From a virus: a DNA stretch of 37,092 nt. The notes below the pieces were generated by a model, which saw only the letters and a program-made list of their open reading frames with translations, was not told the DNA's origin and searched no databases. The DNA is taken from the IMG/VR virus record IMGVR_UViG_3300028590_000999, positions 1 through 37,092 of that record, one strand, 5' to 3'. Position 1 is the first letter of the stretch; each line of letters starts with the position of its first letter. Below, piece after piece: positions 4,918-36,621 of this stretch. A program made the position numbers and the translations under genes.

Positions 4918-4940
4918 CCACGCAAGCACACTCGCGTGAC
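4918..4940 (+). promoter_or_regulatory. Family B palindrome (B1) before terS
   Basis: CACGC-AAGCACACT-CGCGTG core in the gap between the lysin stop and the small terminase. One arm base differs from consensus (CTCGCG for CTTGCG). As RNA it would form a hairpin with a CACA loop. Confidence 0.6.
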
Positions 4941-8488: not shown

Positions 8489-10197
8489 TGCACACCACTG
8501 AGCGGCGCGACTTCGCGACCGCGGTTGAGGTCCGCGCCAAAGCGGATGGAACCGGCAAGACGATTCGCGGCTACGCCTACGTGTTCAACCGGTTGTCGCT
8601 GGATCTCGGCGGCTTCCGTGAGCGGATCGAGGCAGGAGCAGGCCGCGAGGACATGGAACGCGGCGAACTACTCGCCACGTTCAATCACGATTTCGGATCG
8701 CCCCTCGGCCGCACCGGATACGGGCTGCGGACCGGTGTGGACGACACCGGGGGCTGGTACGAGATCGACCTACCGGACACCACGGCCGGGCGCGACGTCG
8801 CCGAACTGGTGGACAAGGGCATCGTGCGGGGGTCGTCGTTCATGTTCATCCTTCGCGACGTCCGCGCGGACCAGGAGTGGACCCGCGACCCCGAGACCGG
8901 GGACCTCATTCGGACCGTCAAGGACTTCCGCGTCCGCGAACTCGGTCCTGTCACCAATCCGGCTTACCCGGACACCACCGTTGCCAAGCGCTCGATTCCG
9001 GCTGCGCTGGCCAATCCCGCCAAGGGGGACACCACTGTGACCGCATCCGTTACCGAGGGCACGACCACCGCCGAACAGCGGGCGCACGCTGAAAACGCCT
9101 TGCAGCGCGCAGCCGATGAGGGCCGCTCGGAGCTTGAGCGGCTGATCCTCGCGCGCCTGGACGCCATCGACGCGCGGTTTGACGCCGAGCTGGGCGAGGC
9201 CCGCGCGACCGAGACCCGTGACGCGCTGCTGGCCGCGCTCGACGAACGCGCCAACCGCGGCCCCGTGGGCGCCGAGGCCGATGACAACGCGACGCTCCGC
9301 GCGCTCGGTGAGGGCGACTCGGCGGAGTTCCGCGCCGTTCTGGGCGTGGGCATCGACGTGGACAACAAGCAGGGCGGCAAGACCGCCGCGCGGCCCTCGC
9401 TGTACTCCGAACTGCTCAAGGTCATTCAGGAGCGGTCCAGCATCATCGCGGCCGGTGCGCGAGTCATCCGCACGACCGGTGGCGGGGCGATCGACTTCCC
9501 CCGCGTCGTGCCCAAGGCACACCGGGGCAAGACCGCCGAGGGCAACGCGCTGCCGGAGAACTACCCGGCCACGGACCTGGTGCCCCTGGATGTGGCCAAG
9601 ACCGGTTACGTCTCGCACATCTCGGCCGAGCTGGTCGAGGACGACCTTGTCGACCTGATTGGTTTTCTGGTCGCGGACGCCGGTCCCAACCTCGCGGACA
9701 CCATGGGTGTGGATTTCGTCGCGGCGCTGCTGTCGACCACCACGGGCATCCTGCCCGCGCTGCGGAAGACGATCGCGGCGGCCCCGGCTGCGGACAACGG
9801 CTACACCGACGCGGTTATTGACGTGCACTACTCGATCCCGGAGTTCTACGCGGCCCGTGCCCGCTGGATCATGGGTCGCCTCACGCTGGCCCGCGCCCGC
9901 AAGTGGAAGGACGCGGACGGCCGCTACCTGCTCAAGTCGGTGGCGGACGGCGGCGCACTGACCCTCATGGATCGCCCCGTGTCCGTCGACCCGGGTTTCG
10001 GCGCCACCAACGAGGGCAAGATTGCGTTCACCGACCTCGGCGGTTTCACCGTCCGGTTCGCCGGTCCGCTGCGCGTTGCCCGGTCCACCGAGGTCAAGTT
10101 CCTTGAGGACCTGGTGTCGTACAAGTTCGTCCAGCGCTACGGCGGCGCCCTGATCGACACCTCGGGTTCGGCCCTGCTGACCCTGCCCGCCGCGTAA
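8488..10197 (+). CDS. Fused HK97-type prohead protease and major capsid protein
   Basis: 569 residues. Residues about 1-175 are an HK97-type prohead protease, with H67 in FNHD and the catalytic Ser in RGSSFMF (S116/S117). Residues about 185-290 are charged and helical and resemble the scaffolding (delta) domain. The capsid domain starts at about 310 (LYSELLKVIQERS) and runs through ENYPATDLVPLDVAKTGY to the C-terminus. The polyprotein should cleave itself so that only the C-terminal part forms the shell. The reading frame is continuous. An internal start for capsid alone was not evident. A long hairpin follows at 10205-10250. Confidence 0.92.
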   Translation: MHTTERRDFATAVEVRAKADGTGKTIRGYAYVFNRLSLDLGGFRERIEAGAGREDMERGELLATFNHDFGSPLGRTGYGLRTGVDDTGGWYEIDLPDTTAGRDVAELVDKGIVRGSSFMFILRDVRADQEWTRDPETGDLIRTVKDFRVRELGPVTNPAYPDTTVAKRSIPAALANPAKGDTTVTASVTEGTTTAEQRAHAENALQRAADEGRSELERLILARLDAIDARFDAELGEARATETRDALLAALDERANRGPVGAEADDNATLRALGEGDSAEFRAVLGVGIDVDNKQGGKTAARPSLYSELLKVIQERSSIIAAGARVIRTTGGGAIDFPRVVPKAHRGKTAEGNALPENYPATDLVPLDVAKTGYVSHISAELVEDDLVDLIGFLVADAGPNLADTMGVDFVAALLSTTTGILPALRKTIAAAPAADNGYTDAVIDVHYSIPEFYAARARWIMGRLTLARARKWKDADGRYLLKSVADGGALTLMDRPVSVDPGFGATNEGKIAFTDLGGFTVRFAGPLRVARSTEVKFLEDLVSYKFVQRYGGALIDTSGSALLTLPAA

Positions 10198-10204
10198 CCA
10201 CAAC

Positions 10205-10250
10205 GCCATGCCCGAGTCACGCAAGCACACTTGCCCGACTCGGGCATGGC
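10205..10250 (+). terminator. Long hairpin with nested family B element (B2) after the capsid gene
   Basis: GCCATGCCCGAGTC (10205-10218) pairs perfectly with 10237-10250. Inside, ACGCAAG-CACA-CTTGC forms a second stem with a CACA loop. It starts 8 bases after the capsid stop. There is no U-tract, so it may act as an attenuator or an RNA-stability hairpin, lowering connector expression relative to capsid, as well as carrying a B site. Confidence 0.6.
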
Positions 10251-12062: not shown

Positions 12063-12080
12063 CTGTTGTGCGCACCACAA
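12063..12080. promoter_or_regulatory. Family A palindrome (A2)
   Basis: CTGTTGTG-CG-CACCACAA, two mismatches in the left arm, in the 61-base gap between the tail tube gene and the next coding start. It lies within the late block, away from any recognised terminator. Confidence 0.5.
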
Positions 12081-19876: not shown

Positions 19877-20446
19877 GTGCATCCCAACATCGGCATCGTC
19901 GGGCGACTTCGCACCGGCAAGGACACCATCGCCGGATACCTGACGCGGGAGCGGGGCTACGCGCGTGTTGCGCTGGCCGATCCGCTGCGCGCGCTGGCTC
20001 TCAAGCTCGATCCCATCGTCTCGGACGGCTCGGTCCGCCTATCCGCGGTCGTTGACCGGATCGGTTGGGAGCAAGCCAAGGACACCGTGCCCGAGGTACG
20101 GCGGACCTTGCAGCGCCTCGGTACCGACGTCATCCGCCACGGGATCGCCCCGGACACATGGGTGTCCCTCGCGGTCGCGCAGATCACCCGGCACAACGCC
20201 GAGGGACGACCGGTGGTCATCCCCGACGTCCGATTCCCCAACGAGGTGCGCGGCCTCGCGGAGCTGGTGGACGCCGAGATGTGGCGCGTCACCAGAGCGA
20301 GTGCACCCAAGACCACAACCCATGAGAGCGAGTCCCACGCGGACACGCTCCCGGTCACTCGAACCATCGCCAACGACGGCGAGGTCTCCGACCTGTTCCG
20401 CGCGGTTGATTCCGTGCTCATCCCCGAGAAAGTAGGTGCACTGTGA
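19877..20446 (+). CDS. Deoxynucleoside monophosphate kinase-like P-loop protein
   Basis: 189 residues, GTG 19877, with AGAGGCAGG upstream. The P-loop is GRLRTGKDT at 9-17 within GIVGRLRTGKDTIAGYL. A downstream region (RRTLQRLGTDVIRHGIAPDTW) and VVIPDVRFPNEVRGL match phage dNMP kinases of the T4 gp1 kind. It would phosphorylate dNMPs to supply DNA synthesis. Its position at the end of the late block, away from the replication genes, is odd. The stop overlaps the next start (GTGA). Confidence 0.8.
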   Translation: MHPNIGIVGRLRTGKDTIAGYLTRERGYARVALADPLRALALKLDPIVSDGSVRLSAVVDRIGWEQAKDTVPEVRRTLQRLGTDVIRHGIAPDTWVSLAVAQITRHNAEGRPVVIPDVRFPNEVRGLAELVDAEMWRVTRASAPKTTTHESESHADTLPVTRTIANDGEVSDLFRAVDSVLIPEKVGAL

Positions 20447-20712: not shown

Positions 20713-20791
20713 ATGTGGTGTGCACAACAGAAGCTTGCGCAAGCACACTTGCGTCACTAAACCTTGAGTCACGCAAGCACACTTGCATGAC
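20713..20791. promoter_or_regulatory. Operator cluster A-B-B before the SprT-like gene
   Basis: Family A site ATGTGGTG-TG-CACAACAG (20713-20730, right arm degenerate) is followed by two family B sites (20735-20756 and 20766-20791), both in forward orientation. It begins 7 bases after a terminator and ends 19 bases before a start codon, where a promoter is expected. A weak TTGCGC-N17-TAAACC pair (20735-20763) overlaps the first B site. Confidence 0.6.
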
Positions 20792-20809: not shown

Positions 20810-21559
20810 ATGACCAGCACCGGAACCGGCTCCCGCATCGTCGCCGCGATCGAAGCGGCATGGACGGTGATCCGCGAGTGCAACCCGGACGTGCCCGAGG
20901 TCGTGGTTGTCACGGGTTCGGGGTTCGCTCAGCGCGGCGGGGACCGGTGGGCGCACTTCTGGGCGGAGCGGTGGACGGTTGACACCGAGACCGAGGCGCC
21001 GCGCGTCCCTGAACTCTTTGTCGCAGGTGAATTGCTGGGCTTGCCGGGCGCCCGAATCATGCAAACCTTGTTGCACGAGGCGGCGCATGGCCTCGCCCGA
21101 ATTCGTGGCATTCAAGACACCAACGTGAATGGTCGCCACAACCTGAAGTTTGTCGAACTGGCAACGGAACTCGGGGATGAGTGGCCGGACGGAAAGACCC
21201 CGCACAAGACGCACGGATTCTCGGCCGTAGAGATCACCGAGGCCGCAAAGGTCAATTACGCGACCGTCATTGCCGAGTTGGAAACCGCGCGCCTCGCGCA
21301 CCTTCGCGACATCACCATTGCGGCCACGGGTGGCGCTGGTGGAACAGGCGATGACGGCGACGATGACGGCGAGACGATCAAGCGCGGCCGGGGCAGCCGG
21401 GGCGGCCGTACGGGCAGCAAGCGGCCGAACGCGGTGTGCGCTTGCGTGACTCCCGATCCGTTCCCGATCAGCCCGGGGCGACTCGCTAGGCGGCCGATCC
21501 TGTGCGGTGACTGCGGGAGCGAGTTCCGTCACCCGGAGGATTCCGCCTTGGCGGCTTGA
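20810..21559 (+). CDS. SprT-like zinc metallopeptidase
   Basis: 249 residues, ATG 20810, with GAGGGGTAGG upstream. Residues 89-93 are HEAAH, the HExxH zinc-protease motif, followed by ARIRGI and a NGRHNLKF segment that supplies the third ligand in SprT-like proteins. The C-terminal C-x-C ... CGDC cluster looks like a zinc ribbon, as in SprT/Spartan-type proteins. Family members cut proteins crosslinked to DNA. A role in clearing DNA-protein blocks during phage replication is inference. The gene opens the replication block. A half B site and a terminator follow the stop. Confidence 0.75.
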   Translation: MTSTGTGSRIVAAIEAAWTVIRECNPDVPEVVVVTGSGFAQRGGDRWAHFWAERWTVDTETEAPRVPELFVAGELLGLPGARIMQTLLHEAAHGLARIRGIQDTNVNGRHNLKFVELATELGDEWPDGKTPHKTHGFSAVEITEAAKVNYATVIAELETARLAHLRDITIAATGGAGGTGDDGDDDGETIKRGRGSRGGRTGSKRPNAVCACVTPDPFPISPGRLARRPILCGDCGSEFRHPEDSALAA

Positions 21560-21569
21560 GTCACGCAAG

Positions 21570-21604
21570 GGCTCCGTGTGCTACGGTCGCGCACGGAGCC
21601 TTTC
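21570..21604 (+). terminator. Terminator after the SprT-like gene
   Basis: GGCTCCGTG (21570-21578) pairs with CACGGAGCC (21592-21600), followed by TTTCG. A half family B site (GAGTCACGCAAG, 21558-21569) abuts its left arm. Confidence 0.65.
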
Positions 21605-21631
21605 GCATTGCATCGAATCGGCAAAAGGGGA

Positions 21632-22267
21632 ATGTCCGTGGCGGCAGTGCCAATCGCGAAGCGACACAAAGCGCGAACCGAGCTAGTCGACGCGTTTCGC
21701 GATCTCATGCGGTCCGATTCGACCGAGAATCGACGGGCGGTCTCGGCCGCGATTGTCGAATTTCGCCGTACGTTCCTGAACCACAAAGGTCTACCAGACC
21801 TCGCAGGCCGGTCGAAAGACTACAAGATCGAACTTGAGGAAGCGCGCGAGACTGCGGGAGCGTCCGGGTCTGCAACTGACAAGCTACTCAACTCCATCCG
21901 GTGGCACACGGCGGACGCGGTGAGGGACGCCATTCGCAAATTCGCCAAAGGCGATGATGCGGAGTACCGGCGATTGTGTCAGCAGTACGCGATCAAGCCC
22001 GAGAGGGCTACTGAACGACATGCGCAGAAGACGCGCGTTCAGCGCAGCCTTGCGGGCGGGCGCATTCACGGCGGGACGGTCCTCGCGCTCATGAGCGCGG
22101 CGCGCGATCAGGTACAGCGCGAGGCTGACGAGATGGCGGCCGGCCGTTGGCGCCCGCCGCACAACGCAACCCCGGACGTCCTAGCTGAGATGGTCGCCAC
22201 AGCCGACGCGCTAGCCGAGCTGCTGCCGCGCGTGGTTGATGGCTGGCGGAACGAACTAGCCGAGTAG
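21632..22267 (+). CDS. Hypothetical protein
   Basis: 211 residues. ATG 21632 (MSVAAVPIAKRHKA) is preceded by AAAAGGGG. It is strongly charged and mostly helical, with SENRRAVSAAIVEF-like stretches absent of membrane segments, KDYKIELEEARETAG in the centre and VDGWRNELAE at the end. No domain was recognised. It lies between two terminators, so it forms its own transcription unit between the SprT-like and exonuclease genes; a DNA-metabolism accessory role is only a guess from position. Confidence 0.6.
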   Translation: MSVAAVPIAKRHKARTELVDAFRDLMRSDSTENRRAVSAAIVEFRRTFLNHKGLPDLAGRSKDYKIELEEARETAGASGSATDKLLNSIRWHTADAVRDAIRKFAKGDDAEYRRLCQQYAIKPERATERHAQKTRVQRSLAGGRIHGGTVLALMSAARDQVQREADEMAAGRWRPPHNATPDVLAEMVATADALAELLPRVVDGWRNELAE

Positions 22268-22280
22268 AAGCATTCCGCCG

Positions 22281-22312
22281 AGTCCCCGGATTGCCGCTCA
22301 CCCGGGGACTTT
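22281..22312 (+). terminator. Intrinsic terminator
   Basis: AGTCCCCGG (22281-22289) pairs with CCGGGGACT (22302-22310), loop ATTGCCGCTCAC, followed by TTGTTGTG. It lies 14 bases after the hypothetical gene stop and runs directly into a family A site. Confidence 0.75.
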
Positions 22313-22356
22313 GTTGTGTGCACCACGACTTATCGACGCAAGCACACTTACGTGAG
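22311..22356. promoter_or_regulatory. Operator pair A-B before the exonuclease gene
   Basis: Family A site TTGTTGTG-TG-CACCACGA (22311-22328) is followed by a family B site (22335-22356, core ACGCAAGCACACTTACGT). It starts inside the tail of a terminator and lies about 80 bases before the start codon. Confidence 0.6.
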
Positions 22357-23708: not shown

Positions 23709-23740
23709 CCGAGTCACGCAAGCACACTTGCGCTACTCGG
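23709..23740 (+). promoter_or_regulatory. Family B palindrome in an extended hairpin (B7)
   Basis: CCGAGT and ACTCGG flank CGCAAG-CACA-CTTGCG with a two-base mismatch between stems. It begins 6 bases after a stop codon and lies about 38 bases before the next start. It may serve as a terminator, an operator, or both. Confidence 0.6.
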
Positions 23741-30210: not shown

Positions 30211-30868
30211 CCGATGCGGCACGACCACCGGGGTCCGGCCCTACATCGTTCAGTGGCCGCGCAAGGCGTTTCTCTGCCGGACGCACGCGGCGGCCCACTT
30301 CAAGGCCACTCGGCGGGATGCCTTGGCCCGGACGCGCGCGCAGTACGGAGACCTGGCGGCGCGAGAGGACCAGGCGCACGCGCATCACATCGCGTTGCGG
30401 GCAGACACGATCGGGCGGTTGGCCATCGCTGATGTTGGTGTGCGCACCACAACCGGGCGTCTCTTGGACGTACTTGCCCGGACGTCACGTCGCTACTTCG
30501 CCGAGTGGGACGACCAAGCCCACCGGGCGTTCGGCTCTGCGCGGGAACGGTCTCGGGCAGCCGGGCACAAGATCCGGGCTGCCGATCGGCACGCGCACGC
30601 CATACCGGTGGACACTCCGTGGCTGCGACGCGTCTACCGGGACCGGTGCATCTACTGCGGTGACCGTGTGGCCCACATTGATCACGTGTGGCCGCTGGTC
30701 GCTGGCGGGGACGACGCGCCGTGGAACCTCGCGCCGAGCTGCGCGCGGTGCAACCTGAGCAAGGGCGGCAAGTCACTGGCCGAGTGGTGGCCGGGTCACT
30801 GGGCTGCACTGAATGAGATTGAGCGTGTGCGCGCGGGTGCGCTCTGGGACTCGCTGCTGACCGGATGA
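30200..30868 (+). CDS. HNH endonuclease with N-terminal CxxC
   Basis: 222 residues, ATG 30200, overlapping the previous gene. The N-terminus has MRCSRCGTT. A long charged helical region follows (ARTRAQYGDLAARE). The HNH core is near the C-terminus: RCIYCGDRVAHIDHVWPLVA, then APSCARCNLSKGGK, giving two CxxC zinc pairs and the histidine catalytic region. Such phage HNH enzymes may act in recombination or as mobile elements. A family A palindrome (30433-30452) lies inside. Overlaps the next gene by four bases (ATGA). Confidence 0.85.
   Translation: MRCSRCGTTTGVRPYIVQWPRKAFLCRTHAAAHFKATRRDALARTRAQYGDLAAREDQAHAHHIALRADTIGRLAIADVGVRTTTGRLLDVLARTSRRYFAEWDDQAHRAFGSARERSRAAGHKIRAADRHAHAIPVDTPWLRRVYRDRCIYCGDRVAHIDHVWPLVAGGDDAPWNLAPSCARCNLSKGGKSLAEWWPGHWAALNEIERVRAGALWDSLLTG
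30433..30452. promoter_or_regulatory. Family A palindrome inside the HNH gene (A6)
   Basis: TGTTGGTG-TGCG-CACCACAA, 4-base spacer, one left-arm mismatch. Like the copy at 17944 it is intragenic. Confidence 0.4.
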
Positions 30869-31739: not shown

Positions 31740-31993
31740 GCCGTCATTTACCCCGCCCTTCGCCCGGTTGTTGATCTTGGTTTCGGCGGGTGTTGGCGGT
31801 GACGTGGCGATCCATTGCCGGAGGGCGCGTTACGGGCCGCAAAGGTCCGTTATCAAACCGAGATACACGAATGGCCTAGCAGCGAGATCGCTGCGGATAG
31901 GTGCACGCATACGCATGATCACTTGCGTATGTTCGAGGTTGGCGACACGTCTGCTCGAACATACGTTCTAACGGAGGATGGTGCTTACTTTCT
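31740..31993 (+). other. Regulatory gap before the sigma-like gene, with nested inverted repeats
   Basis: This gap is less GC-rich than its flanks. GCAGCGA/TCGCTGC form a dyad (31879-31894). CATACGCA (31908-31915) is complementary to 31924-31931. CGTATGTTCGAG (31926-31937) is complementary to 31954-31965. The last two share 31926-31931, so they cannot form together. A possible 60-codon frame (31815-31997, TTG start) would overlap the next gene by GTGA, but it lacks a ribosome-binding site and has AT-rich third positions. Confidence 0.6.
31939..31967 (+). promoter_or_regulatory. Candidate promoter of the sigma-like gene
   Basis: TTGGCG (31939-31944) and TACGTT (31962-31967) are 17 bases apart. 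The right arm of the 12-bp inverted repeat overlaps the -10 box and the left arm lies just before the -35 box, so a repressor binding the repeat would block it. GGAGG (31974-31978) follows at about the predicted start of transcription. Confidence 0.4.
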
Positions 31994-32902
31994 GTGACCG
32001 TTTTGGTGGACTGTTCGCCAGTTGTGCGCACATTCAGTGATGAGTTTCGGCGCGGCTTGGACGTGGGGAAGCAAGCCGCGTTTAGGGGTGCCGCGCTGCG
32101 GGAGATGCTGGGCGCGCTTGCCCGCAACACCTGCGCCGCTGCCGCGTGGGCCGACCCGCGTGACGTCACCGAGCTGGTGGCGGCCGTGGCCAACGGCGAC
32201 CGCACCGCCGAGGGGCCGCTGTACGTCCGGGCTGCGGCTGACCTGGATCGGGTGGCCGGTCGGGCGGTGGGGTCCTCGGCGATGGACCGCGACGACCTTC
32301 ACCAAGAGGGCGCGGTACGCCTGATCACCGACGCGCGCTCAGGCAAGATCGCGGACGATTTCGGGTGCAACCTCGGCGCGTACATCGGCAAGGCCGTGTT
32401 CGCGCACTGCCTCAACGTCGCGTGCACGCAGGCGCCCGGGAAGCCAACCGACCCGACCCGGCTGACGCAGAAGCTCAGGCAGGCGCTGCGAGTCACGGCG
32501 GACGCGGACGGCGAGTACGACCTGATCGCGGCTGCGACGTTCGCCCGAGAGCGGCACGGCTGGACGCTGGCCACGTTCTGGGACGTTCACAAGATCATGT
32601 TCTCCGCGACGGACGATCTGTACTCGGTTGACCGCGAGGGCTACCCGCTGGCCGACACGCTTGGCGACTCGGCCGCGGTGGACGCGTTTGAACGTGTGGA
32701 GGTGATCGAGACCGTTCGCGCGCTGCTTAAGGCAGGCGAACTCGCTCCGCGCGAACGTGAGGTGATCGACCTTCTGTTCGGCGTTGACGGTCCGATGCTG
32801 GCCGAGGATGAGGCCGCGCGCGTCCTTGGCGTCACCCGGCAGAGCGTGAACAAGTCCAAGCGGACCGCGCTGGCCAAGCTCGGCGCCCTCATCGGCAATT
32901 GA
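31994..32902 (+). CDS. Sigma-70-like factor
   Basis: 302 residues from GTG 31994. The middle holds a region 2-like segment (MDRDDLHQEGAVRLITDARS, then GAYIGKAVFAHCLN). The C-terminal third has region 4: LAPREREVIDLLF, then an HTH with AARVLGVTRQSVNKSKRTAL. GGAGG (31974-31978) is 15 bases upstream, which is long, so the start is not certain. It may direct phage transcription, perhaps of the late block, by analogy with other phage sigma factors. Regions 1 and 3 were not evident. Confidence 0.78.
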   Translation: MTVLVDCSPVVRTFSDEFRRGLDVGKQAAFRGAALREMLGALARNTCAAAAWADPRDVTELVAAVANGDRTAEGPLYVRAAADLDRVAGRAVGSSAMDRDDLHQEGAVRLITDARSGKIADDFGCNLGAYIGKAVFAHCLNVACTQAPGKPTDPTRLTQKLRQALRVTADADGEYDLIAAATFARERHGWTLATFWDVHKIMFSATDDLYSVDREGYPLADTLGDSAAVDAFERVEVIETVRALLKAGELAPREREVIDLLFGVDGPMLAEDEAARVLGVTRQSVNKSKRTALAKLGALIGN

Positions 32903-33444: not shown

Positions 33445-33683
33445 GGCGTGAAGTCGGGCGCCTGGTCCTCACAGTCGGCGGCCCGCGCGACCGCTACCTA
33501 TTTCGGATCGACCCCATGCATGAGTTCCGGGTACCCGTACCGAACCCGGTCCCAGCCTTCGATGTCGCGGGGAACCAGCTCGCGCCTTTCCGCGTGGCGC
33601 GCTACCTGGACACAGGCACGTTCGTCCATGACCCGTGGCTTGGTCATCTTCGCGTGTACACCTATGGCGGCACAGTGCACTAG
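33441..33683 (+). CDS. Small hypothetical protein
   Basis: 80 residues from GTG 33441, overlapping the previous stop by GTGA. It is strand-rich, with RDRYLFRIDPMHEFRVPVPN, a central PFRVARYLDTGTFVHDP and LRVYTYGGTVH at the end. The first part suits a small beta protein. No family was recognised. A terminator lies 18 bases after the stop, closing the sigma-to-33683 unit. Confidence 0.5.
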   Translation: MRREVGRLVLTVGGPRDRYLFRIDPMHEFRVPVPNPVPAFDVAGNQLAPFRVARYLDTGTFVHDPWLGHLRVYTYGGTVH

Positions 33684-33701
33684 CGCCGCGCACCACCTGA
33701 C

Positions 33702-33736
33702 ATGGCCCTGCCCTCAGTCCGAGGGTGGGGCCATTT
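33702..33736 (+). terminator. Intrinsic terminator
   Basis: ATGGCCCTGCCCTC (33702-33715) pairs with 33721-33734 over 14 positions including two G-U wobbles, loop AGTCC, then TTTG. It precedes an operator cluster. Confidence 0.75.
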
Positions 33737-33741
33737 GTCGT

Positions 33742-33812
33742 TACGCAAGCACACTTGCGTATGTGGTGCGCACCACAACTGAGTGACGCAAGTGTGCTTG
33801 CGTGACTAACTT
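33742..33812 (+). promoter_or_regulatory. Composite element B-forward / A / B-reverse with embedded promoter
   Basis: Forward B core ACGCAAGCACACTTGCGT (33743-33760) is followed by a perfect A palindrome TGTGGTG-CG-CACCACA (33762-33777) and an inverted B copy (33783-33806). A -35-like GTGACG (33783-33788) and -10-like TAACTT (33807-33812) flank the inverted B with an 18-bp spacer. The next gene starts 40 bases downstream. The same arrangement recurs at 34598-34672. Confidence 0.65.
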
Positions 33813-33851
33813 GTGCCTTGCCACCCGACACCCCCCCGAGAGGACTTCCCG

Positions 33852-34595
33852 ATGCACACGACGGTGACCGAGCTGGACGCCAAGCGCCGTGCCCTCATGC
33901 CGTGGCTGTGGGCCGCCACCGTGCTTGCCATGCTCACATCGTTGGGCGAGGGCACCAAACTCCTGATCGACCTTGGCACCGCGTGGTACGTGGCAGTGCT
34001 GTTCCCCCTCGCATCCGACGTTGGTCTTGTGGCCTCACTGCGCGGGACGGCCGCCCTGTCTGACGCGGGCCTGGACTCCCGGGCCGCCCGGCCGCTGCGG
34101 TGGTTCGCCTCGCTGTTCTGCCTCGCGCTCAACACTGCGGGGTCGGTGATCGCCGGTCACTGGGTCGCGGCGCTGTTCCACGCGGGCATCCCCGCCTTGG
34201 TGATCACCCTTGCCACATTCGAGGAACGGTATTCAGCCGAGTTCGCCGCACTGATACGCCAGCAACGCGAGGCCGACCGGTTGGCGGCCGAGGCTGAGCG
34301 GGCGCGGATCAACGCCGAGGCTGCCGCCGAGACCGTGACCCCGGAATCAGCCCCCGCGATCGAGACGACCAAGCCGACACCACCGCGCAAGCCCGCGACC
34401 GCGGTCACCCGGCCCCGACGCAGTGACGCCGAACTGGTGGCCGAGCTGCGCAAGATGATCGCTGCCAACAACGGCAAGACCCCGCCACGCCGAGAGATCA
34501 CGGCGACGCTTGGCGTCAGCCCCAACCGCGCGGGTCGACTGGTCGCCGCACTCGACAGCGCGAATTCAGAAGACACGAGAAGGGCCTACCTTTGA
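33852..34595 (+). CDS. DUF2637-like membrane protein with C-terminal HTH
   Basis: 247 residues, ATG 33852, behind GAGAGGACTT. The N-terminal half has about four hydrophobic segments (LMPWLWAATVLAML, WYVAVLFPLASDVGLVASL, FASLFCLALNTAGSVIAGHW, AGIPALVITLATF). FPLASDVGLV resembles the DUF2637 pattern in actinobacterial plasmid Spd-type proteins. A charged helix (READRLAAEAERARINAEA) and a Pro-rich linker lead to a winged-helix-like HTH (AELVAELRKMIAANNG ... EITATLGVSPNRAGRLVAAL). This couples membrane and DNA binding; role unknown. Confidence 0.65.
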   Translation: MHTTVTELDAKRRALMPWLWAATVLAMLTSLGEGTKLLIDLGTAWYVAVLFPLASDVGLVASLRGTAALSDAGLDSRAARPLRWFASLFCLALNTAGSVIAGHWVAALFHAGIPALVITLATFEERYSAEFAALIRQQREADRLAAEAERARINAEAAAETVTPESAPAIETTKPTPPRKPATAVTRPRRSDAELVAELRKMIAANNGKTPPRREITATLGVSPNRAGRLVAALDSANSEDTRRAYL

Positions 34596-34597
34596 CC

Positions 34598-34672
34598 GAG
34601 TCACGCAAGCACACTTGCGTCTGTGGTGCACACCACAACCGAGTGACACAAGTGTGCTTGCGTGGATAACCT
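34598..34672 (+). promoter_or_regulatory. Second composite element B-forward / A / B-reverse with embedded promoter
   Basis: Forward B (34598-34620), A palindrome CTGTGGTG-CA-CACCACAA (34621-34638) and inverted B (34642-34665). A -35-like GTGACA (34643-34648) and -10-like TAACCT (34667-34672) are 18 bp apart. It starts 3 bases after the previous gene and lies 34 bases before the next start codon. Confidence 0.65.
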
Positions 34673-34706
34673 CTGGACAGCAAGCCAAAACCGGGAGAGG
34701 AACCCC

Positions 34707-35273
34707 ATGGACGACAACACCGCCCGCACGTTCACCGCCCGCTGGGACGCGCTGGTGTCCGACGCACTCGACCCCAAGGGCTCGGCGTGGTGGGTCGCCT
34801 CGGCCGAGTCCATCGTTGAGGCCGCGCGTGTGTTCACGGCCGAGGTCATGGCGGCCGAGGGACACCCGGTCACCGAGTGGTGGGGCGACGTCCACGTGGG
34901 ATGGGAGCCGGTCGGCGATGAGTACGGCTCGGACTCCTCCGACCACCCCGCGCATGAGCGCTACGCCGAGGTAGCGGTGACCGTGTTCGAGGCGATGCGC
35001 GCGGCAGACCCGGGTGACGCGATCGTCCTTGAGGTGTCGCTGTGCTCCGACCGCCGTTCGATGCGGGTCAGCTTCGCTTCCGAGGCACAGGCCGTGACCT
35101 ACATCGAACGCCACTCGTCTACCCGCGCGTTCCACGACTGGAACCCCGACGCGCCCACCGTGGACCCCGAGCGACACCCACGCCTCTCGGACCTGCTGTA
35201 CCCCACCTGTGACCACGGCTTGTCCGCGTCGAACTGCTACGGCCCGGGGCACTACCCGCCCGACTGGTCCTGA
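34707..35273 (+). CDS. Hypothetical acidic protein
   Basis: 188 residues, ATG 34707, with GGGAGAGG upstream. It is acidic and Trp-rich (FTARWDALVSDAL, EWWGDVHVGWEPVGDEYG), with a helix (HERYAEVAVTVFEAMRAAD) and a strand region (SMRVSFASEAQAVTYIERH), and ends with a CDHGLSASNCYGPGHYP segment that could bind metal. No family was recognised. It is the first gene after the second composite operator, so it is likely regulated by it. Confidence 0.6.
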   Translation: MDDNTARTFTARWDALVSDALDPKGSAWWVASAESIVEAARVFTAEVMAAEGHPVTEWWGDVHVGWEPVGDEYGSDSSDHPAHERYAEVAVTVFEAMRAADPGDAIVLEVSLCSDRRSMRVSFASEAQAVTYIERHSSTRAFHDWNPDAPTVDPERHPRLSDLLYPTCDHGLSASNCYGPGHYPPDWS

Positions 35274-36126: not shown

Positions 36127-36552
36127 ATGGCACAACTTGTAACGACAGCACTGGTTGACGACCTGGACGGGGCCGAGGCGGCCGAGTCCGTGGCGTTCGC
36201 ATTGGACGGTGCGGAATACGAGATCGACCTGTCCGAGGCGAACGCGGCCAAGCTCCGCGATGCCCTCGGCGGCTACGTGAGCAGGGCGCGGCGCACGGGC
36301 GGCAGGCTCAAGCGTGGCCTCGGCAACGGCACGCCCGACCTCGCCAACCGCGAACAGAACCAAGCGATCCGCGAGTGGGCGCAGAAGCAAGGCCACCCGG
36401 TAAGCGACCGAGGCCGAATCCCGAGCGCGATTCAAGAGGCGTTCCACACCGCGCACGCGGTACCGGCCGAGACGCCCAAGCGGACACGCAAGGCCACCGC
36501 CAAGCGCACACCATCGCTCCCCGCATTCGCCGCAGCAGGCAAACGCGCGTAG
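36127..36552 (+). CDS. lsr2: Lsr2-family nucleoid-associated protein
   Basis: 141 residues, ATG 36127, with TGGGGA upstream. The N-terminal dimer domain has VTTALVDDLDGAEAAESVAF and a strand pair (GAEYEIDLSEANAAKLRDAL). The C-terminal DNA-binding domain has IREWAQKQGHPVSDRGRIP, with the minor-groove RGR at 95-97, followed by a basic tail (KRTRKATAKR). Lsr2 proteins bind AT-rich DNA and silence transferred genes. A phage copy could keep lysogenic genes or host genes quiet, or interfere with host Lsr2. It is a single-gene unit between terminators. Confidence 0.93.
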   Translation: MAQLVTTALVDDLDGAEAAESVAFALDGAEYEIDLSEANAAKLRDALGGYVSRARRTGGRLKRGLGNGTPDLANREQNQAIREWAQKQGHPVSDRGRIPSAIQEAFHTAHAVPAETPKRTRKATAKRTPSLPAFAAAGKRA

Positions 36553-36603: not shown

Positions 36604-36621
36604 TTGTGGTGCGCACACCAA
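36604..36621. promoter_or_regulatory. Family A palindrome (A9)
   Basis: TTGTGGTG-CG-CACACCAA, in the gap between the lsr2 terminator and the lipoprotein gene. The right arm is shifted by two bases relative to other copies. Confidence 0.5.

Follow-up and report, generated by a model that had tools for sequence, protein, structure and literature searches.

The closest described system is the repressor-CIR system of the Streptomyces phages phiC31 and TG1, in which one palindrome (CCTACTCACGTGAGTAGG in phiC31) is dispersed over gene borders, terminators, and early promoters, and in which the repressor gene, with sites at its own promoter, lies between the genes for a dNMP kinase and an exonuclease. 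We derived the phiC31 CIRs from the genome, where the detection used below for B returned 15 exact copies. Stoperators of L5 and R4 are likewise repressor sites found both in promoters and genome-wide (PMC6550527, PMC10276819). Those of L5 are asymmetric 13-mers, mostly in one orientation, and the R4 repressor is annotated as L5-gp71-like. Repeated sites are also described in the cluster K mycobacteriophages, where the SAS, an asymmetric 13-bp sequence (GGGATAGGAGCCC), is found at start codons and the ESAS, paired repeats of about 17 bp, upstream of gene starts, with unknown function (PMC3203893).

The DNA analyzed here, which we call the window, is a viral contig of 37,092 bases that opens with the first codon of a serine integrase gene and closes with a stop codon. 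It is a phiC31-type actinobacterial prophage of a soil bacterium, sharing with phiC31 and TG1 the serine integrase, the gp3-like recombination directionality factor (RDF), and the gene order. This order is integrase, terminase, late genes, and dNMP kinase (19877-20446). These are followed by a two-gene block (20810-22267), exonuclease, RDF, methylase, primase, DNA polymerase, HNH nuclease, endonuclease VII, a sigma-like gene (31994-32902), accessory genes, Lsr2, and a lipoprotein-like gene. An Rfam search of the window gave no match. Related prophages are present in Allokutzneria (L012) and in 3 more genomes of the same family; the promoters compared below are labeled G001, G138, G156, and G159. 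The Lsr2-like phage nucleoid protein (36127-36552) is also encoded in G159, G138, and G156 and was not found in Allokutzneria.

Two composite elements, at 33742-33812 and 34598-34672, are built from palindromes that we call A (TGTGG-N6-CCACA) and B, which has 7-bp inverted arms and a 4-base center, CACA or TGTG, in all 10 good copies (Table 1). We give a probability of about 0.6 to the reading that these composites are repressible modular phage promoters, in which a lineage-conserved A, bound by a phage-encoded factor, is joined to the B operator of the phage's own immunity repressor, most likely the product of gene 21578. Judged by sequence comparison, the most fitting reading is an operator/CIR system like that of phiC31 to which a further conserved element has been added. 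A conserved palindrome at a fixed distance from the -10 box and the pair of B sites flanking A in the composites both set the window apart from phiC31 and TG1.

Table 1. Features of the window (coordinates in bases from its first letter) and the corresponding promoters of related prophages; boxes are given in alignment at +44, counted from the first position of A.
Feature	Position	Strand	Remarks
Dispersed B	4920-4937	+	gene junction before terminase small subunit
Dispersed B	10219-10236	+	loop of perfect inverted repeat after 8488-10197 gene
A-like site	12064-12079	+	gene junction at which relatives also have A copies
Third promoter of the class	20714-20763	+	A 20714-20729, B 20737-20754, -10-like TAAACC 20758; upstream of 20810 gene; box TAAACCTTGA
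Second B of 20810 promoter	20771-20788	+	
SprT-like protein P0001	20810-21559	+	HEAAH, zinc ribbon; constant neighbor of 21578
Candidate immunity repressor P0002	21578-22267	+	229 residues; at position of phiC31 c
A and B before exonuclease gene	22312-22353	+	A with 3 mismatches; B from 22336
Dispersed B	23716-23733	+	before RDF (gp3-like) gene
Phage sigma-factor-like protein P0003	31994-32902	+	phiC31 gene-12 position
Intrinsic-terminator-like hairpin	33702-33734	+	just 5' of element 1
Element 1, upstream putative operator B	33743-33760	+	ACGCAAGCACACTTGCGT; exact palindrome arms
Element 1, A	33762-33777	+	TGTGGTGCGCACCACA; perfect 16-bp palindrome; box CTAACTTGTG
Element 1, GTGACG	33783-33788		
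Element 1, inverted B	33786-33803	-	ACGCAAGTGTGCTTGCGT; over putative core promoter
Element 1, -10-like TAACTT	33807-33812	+	45 bp from A start
Accessory gene after element 1	33852-34595	+	membrane segment, C-terminal HTH-like tail (PHROG 25954, unknown)
Element 2, upstream putative operator B	34603-34620	+	
Element 2, A	34622-34637	+	1 mismatch; box ATAACCTCTG
Element 2, GTGACA	34643-34648		
Element 2, inverted B	34646-34663	-	1 mismatch; over putative core promoter
Element 2, -10-like TAACCT	34667-34672	+	45 bp from A start
Accessory gene after element 2	34707-35273	+	unknown function
A-like site without B	36605-36620	+	upstream of lipoprotein-like gene; counterpart in the prophage of Allokutzneria (L012 17829)
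G001 promoter			box TATACCTTGA
G159 promoter			box CTAACATTGT
G138 promoter			box TTAGGTTTGT
G156 promoter			box TTAAGTTGGT

The initial annotation described the layout of the composites correctly: in both gaps the order is forward B, A, inverted B, 18 bases separate GTGAC(A/G) from TAAC(C/T)T, and a gene starts 34-40 bases later (39 bases to the ATG of the first accessory gene, 34 to that of the second). It also took the 2 gaps to be independent, which they are not, as both elements belong to one 93-bp direct repeat with 82% identity and thus have to be counted once. This identity, together with the position of both copies before accessory genes that were found in none of the 4 related prophages, would fit a recent duplication that does nothing special apart from carrying copied operators. 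We consider this highly improbable, since the likeness ends at TAAC, in the -10-like box, with unrelated flanks beyond, and the A-to--10 spacing is kept in 4 other phages with different operators. The B/A/inverted-B order does not appear to be the functional unit that had been proposed, because A is followed by a forward B at 20714/20737 and 22312/22336, so that inversion is not required, and because relatives do without any upstream B.

The further proposal of a regulated promoter with A upstream and B over the core is supported by the relatives, since A and a -10-like box keep a fixed distance in 5 phages, rather than by the -35-like box GTGAC. This box shares 3 bases with the inverted B and is therefore inseparable from the operator flank. 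No hexamer is kept at its position in other promoters of the class, the 7 aligned promoters share no -35 hexamer, and a standard sigma-70 consensus scan of 33600-34800 (a TTGACA-16-18-TATAAT-like pair) gave no match, only a -10-like box. In the compared promoters A lies 44-45 bp upstream of this -10-like box. TANNNT stands at exactly +45 from the start of A in 5 of the 7 A-plus-operator promoters and at +46 in a sixth (chance rate 0.018 per position locally, 0.0009 genome-wide), the 7 being partly dependent, as the 2 composites are a repeat and G138 and G156 are kin, with at least 3 lineages in agreement.

Upstream of the homolog of gene 20810, A reads TGTGGTGTGCACCACA in all 4 related prophages and TGTGGTGTGCACAACA in the window. 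The palindrome between A and the -10 box is ACGCAAG-CACA-CTTGCGT in the window and CAAGGNNCCTTG, GTGCGTGAACATGTTCACGTAC, or TGCGTTACCATGGTAACGCA in the relatives, 4 different sequences including that of the window, with G138 and G156 having the same operator. As A is near-invariant while the palindrome varies by phage, A has the look of a promoter element common to these phages, and B that of an operator specific to each. In Allokutzneria the operator center lies about 5 bp nearer the -10 box at an unchanged A-to--10 distance, so that the position of A follows the -10 box rather than B.

B is strongly overrepresented in the window, with 11 matches within 3 mismatches where 2.25 are expected and none of 100 shuffles reaching 11. 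Only the copies at 33786 and 34646 among the 10 in Table 1 are in the opposite orientation, and the use of promoter B in both orientations (20737 versus 33786) fits a symmetric dimer. B is unrelated in sequence to the phiC31 palindrome and, unlike the L5 sites, is palindromic and occurs in both orientations. Neither the exact B pattern nor the exact B-plus-A pattern was found in IMG/VR. The variable palindrome has 2 sites each in G159, G138, and G156 and 4 in G001, versus 10 in the window, and in these relatives it never strays far from the 20810/21578 genes. In G159, G138, and G156 one site precedes gene 20810 and the other is at the gene border that follows, while in G001 2 of the 4 sites precede the exonuclease. 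Several borders that hold B in the window hold A in relatives (10219 versus 8878-8926 in G159; 4920 versus 2966 in G138).

The dispersed copies of B are placed like phiC31 CIRs or stoperators, standing at gene borders and, at 10219, within a hairpin loop; CIRs of phiC31 and TG1 also lie within hairpins. The inverted repeat at 10219 has a predicted RNA fold of -37 kcal/mol, and both composites fold at about -40 kcal/mol. If the composites acted in RNA, the 18-bp hairpin of B and inverted B would end or insulate transcription from upstream genes, and the B copy at 10219, within a perfect stem, agrees with this. However, no T run follows the composites, a separate terminator is already present 5' of element 1, B at 20737 is in forward orientation, and the promoters of G159, G138, and G156 have one operator each, which together make an RNA function very improbable.

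A is found 9 times in the window versus 0.34 expected, a count that 0 of 100 shuffles reached, and the exact sequence occurs in only 2 IMG/VR records, related to G138 and G159. CRP/GlxR sites have a half-site layout and spacing like those of A, and TGTGG-N6-CCACA resembles TGTGA-N6-TCACA, which could make A the site of a CRP-type host regulator. In 4 host genomes, however, nearly all A matches (within 1 mismatch) are inside the prophage and the chromosomes are essentially without A, so that we regard a host regulator as decidedly unlikely.

In G159, G138, and G156, A is further present as 16-20 dispersed copies, mostly in pairs with starts 36-37 or 46-49 bp apart, 2 spacing classes that differ by about one helical turn. 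Another motif, X (GCCGGCCGCGG), which neither the window nor Allokutzneria contains, occurs at 7-10 places in each of these 3 phages, mostly between the A pairs and just before gene starts. Since the A-X-A pairs have no -10 box downstream, A would not be only a promoter element. They resemble the ESAS pairs of cluster K mycobacteriophages, but the ESAS sequence differs from A, its spacer is 4-13 bp versus 20-33 bp between the A repeats, and A additionally has a fixed promoter position beside an operator. A-X-A units were seen at gene junctions in the G156, G159, and G138 prophages (L049/L050 and L045-L048). An A-like site at 30436-30451 lies within the HNH gene and has a counterpart at nearly the same place in Allokutzneria (L012 14616), which may reflect codon conservation.

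The relative L007 is 63-76% identical to the window in the replication genes and the sigma-like gene (63% for the latter). Its 30-kb record, possibly a fragment, is without genes 20810 and 21578, and neither A nor B was found in it within 2 mismatches; gene 20810 is present in the A-bearing phages. In the compared stretch these 2 genes are the ones that accompany A and are missing in L007, which, for one loss in one record that may be a fragment, makes the genes or their products candidate partners of A and B. The 20810 product was rejected as the operator-binding protein, since it is 82% identical between G159 and G138, whose operators differ, and 58% identical between G138 and G156, which share an operator. 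A more speculative proposal, possible though doubtful, is that A is the site of a phage activator common to an entire lineage of phiC31-type prophages, whose promoters would join a fixed activation half to an operator half that can be exchanged. The SprT-like product of gene 20810 would be the activator or its partner, and immunity specificity would evolve by swapping the operator and the repressor DNA-binding block alone.

The B-binder is likely the product of gene 21578, to judge from its locus and a possible distant homology. The gene occupies the place that c has in phiC31, flanked by dNMP kinase and exonuclease, and the 20810/21578 genes have A, B, and B upstream, from which we infer that it encodes the repressor. 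Proteins of its class had been annotated only as hypothetical; it has no assignment in NCBIfam or Pfam and gave no BLASTP match to phiC31 c, a protein of 683 residues. A family profile ranks c first of all phiC31 proteins (hhalign E = 0.0011, probability 20%) and TG1 c first of all TG1 proteins, and a larger profile compared with the phiC31, TG1, and Nesbitt repressors together gave E = 5.9e-5 and probability 65%. These probabilities are low, and a similarity in the repressor core would be distant. The AlphaFold model (mean pLDDT 71.7) has a confident helical core at residues ~30-140. A fold search with this model gave no significant PDB match, the top rows being designed or helical proteins, and in Foldseek its best viral neighbor, weak and not significant alone, was the "immunity repressor" of the Streptomyces phage Nesbitt. 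This protein, gp26, of 358 residues and a repressor by annotation, is encoded at the same locus and aligns with weak similarity over the conserved block of the candidate.

Relatives of the 21578 product include Ashes gp25, Floof gp25, Percival gp26, Honk gp24, Barnstormer gp25, and Attoomi gp25, and others are encoded in more genomes of the host family. In annotated phages these genes lie at or beside the dNMP-kinase/exonuclease border, and Attoomi gp25 has a GntR DNA-binding domain (PF00392, 8e-8). Across columns 27-102 of the family, G138 is 72% identical to G156, with which it shares its operator, versus 61% to G159, while in the tail the values are 34% and 70%. In the alignment of these 3 proteins, columns 24-100 contain 20 sites that unite the equal-operator pair and 10 that unite G138 with G159, versus 9 and 35 outside them. 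Among the 3 phages compared, the N-terminal block thus tracks operator type.

We infer the assignment of proteins to sites, the repression, and the direction of the effect of A as follows. A phage-encoded factor would bind A, at its fixed place 44-45 bp before the -10 box, and help to start transcription or at least mark the promoters. In the lysogen, repressor dimers would occupy the core-promoter B and the upstream B, which are separated by 43 bp or about four helical turns, flanking A and keeping RNA polymerase off. The same repressor would sit on the dispersed B copies at gene borders and at the terminator-like hairpin, as that of phiC31 does on CIRs and those of L5 and R4 on stoperators. 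Upon induction, loss of the repressor would open the promoters, and accessory genes 33852 and 34707 would be expressed.

No repressor gene had been identified in the published description of Floof and Percival, temperate Microbacterium phages of cluster EH (PMC7302621). B-like sites number 13 in Floof when 3 mismatches are allowed, where 1.6 are expected, and 4 within 1 mismatch where none is, and the full CGCAAG-N4-CTTGCG is present in Floof, Percival, and Barnstormer. Repeated CTTGCG-containing promoters occur together with a homolog of the candidate repressor in Floof, Percival, Barnstormer, and Honk (L054, L070, L071, and L072). GRSxDY is common to the homologs in these 4 phages and the window's protein, with A, V, L, or E before Y in others. 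In all 4 a TATAGT-like box places the CTTGCG arm where a -35 box would be, so that B might in part serve as a promoter element. The window's 20737 promoter likewise has TTGCGC 17 bp from TAAACC, and the phage encodes a sigma-like protein, which might read B as a promoter element with A as an accessory site, B then being no repressor operator. Against this, the palindrome is wholly replaced between phages with -10 box and A staying, its center moves in Allokutzneria, B is found at gene borders and in a hairpin loop as well, and L007 has the sigma-like gene yet no A or B, so that we judge recognition by sigma unlikely. With B as a repressor operator, the family to which window gene 21578, Floof gp25, Percival gp26, and Ashes gp25 belong is now proposed as the repressor, and both the family and its probable operators are open to direct testing. 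The phages also form a natural series in which the operator varies in an otherwise constant promoter, so that immunity specificity can be studied apart from promoter activity.

The sigma-like protein itself was considered as a distant phiC31 repressor or gp12 and rejected, as BLASTP gave short chance matches only. Its gene is preceded by a B-like palindrome, ACGCATGATCACTTGCGT, at 31911-31928. Shortly 5' of the gene, at 31955-31970, is an SOS-box-like sequence, TCGAACATACGTTCTA, one mismatch from TCGAAC-N4-GTTCGA, through which a link of induction to LexA is possible. Another SOS-box-like sequence, TAGAACAAACGTTCGA, is found at 2044 (region 2044-2113), downstream of the integrase gene and near an A-like site at 2098.
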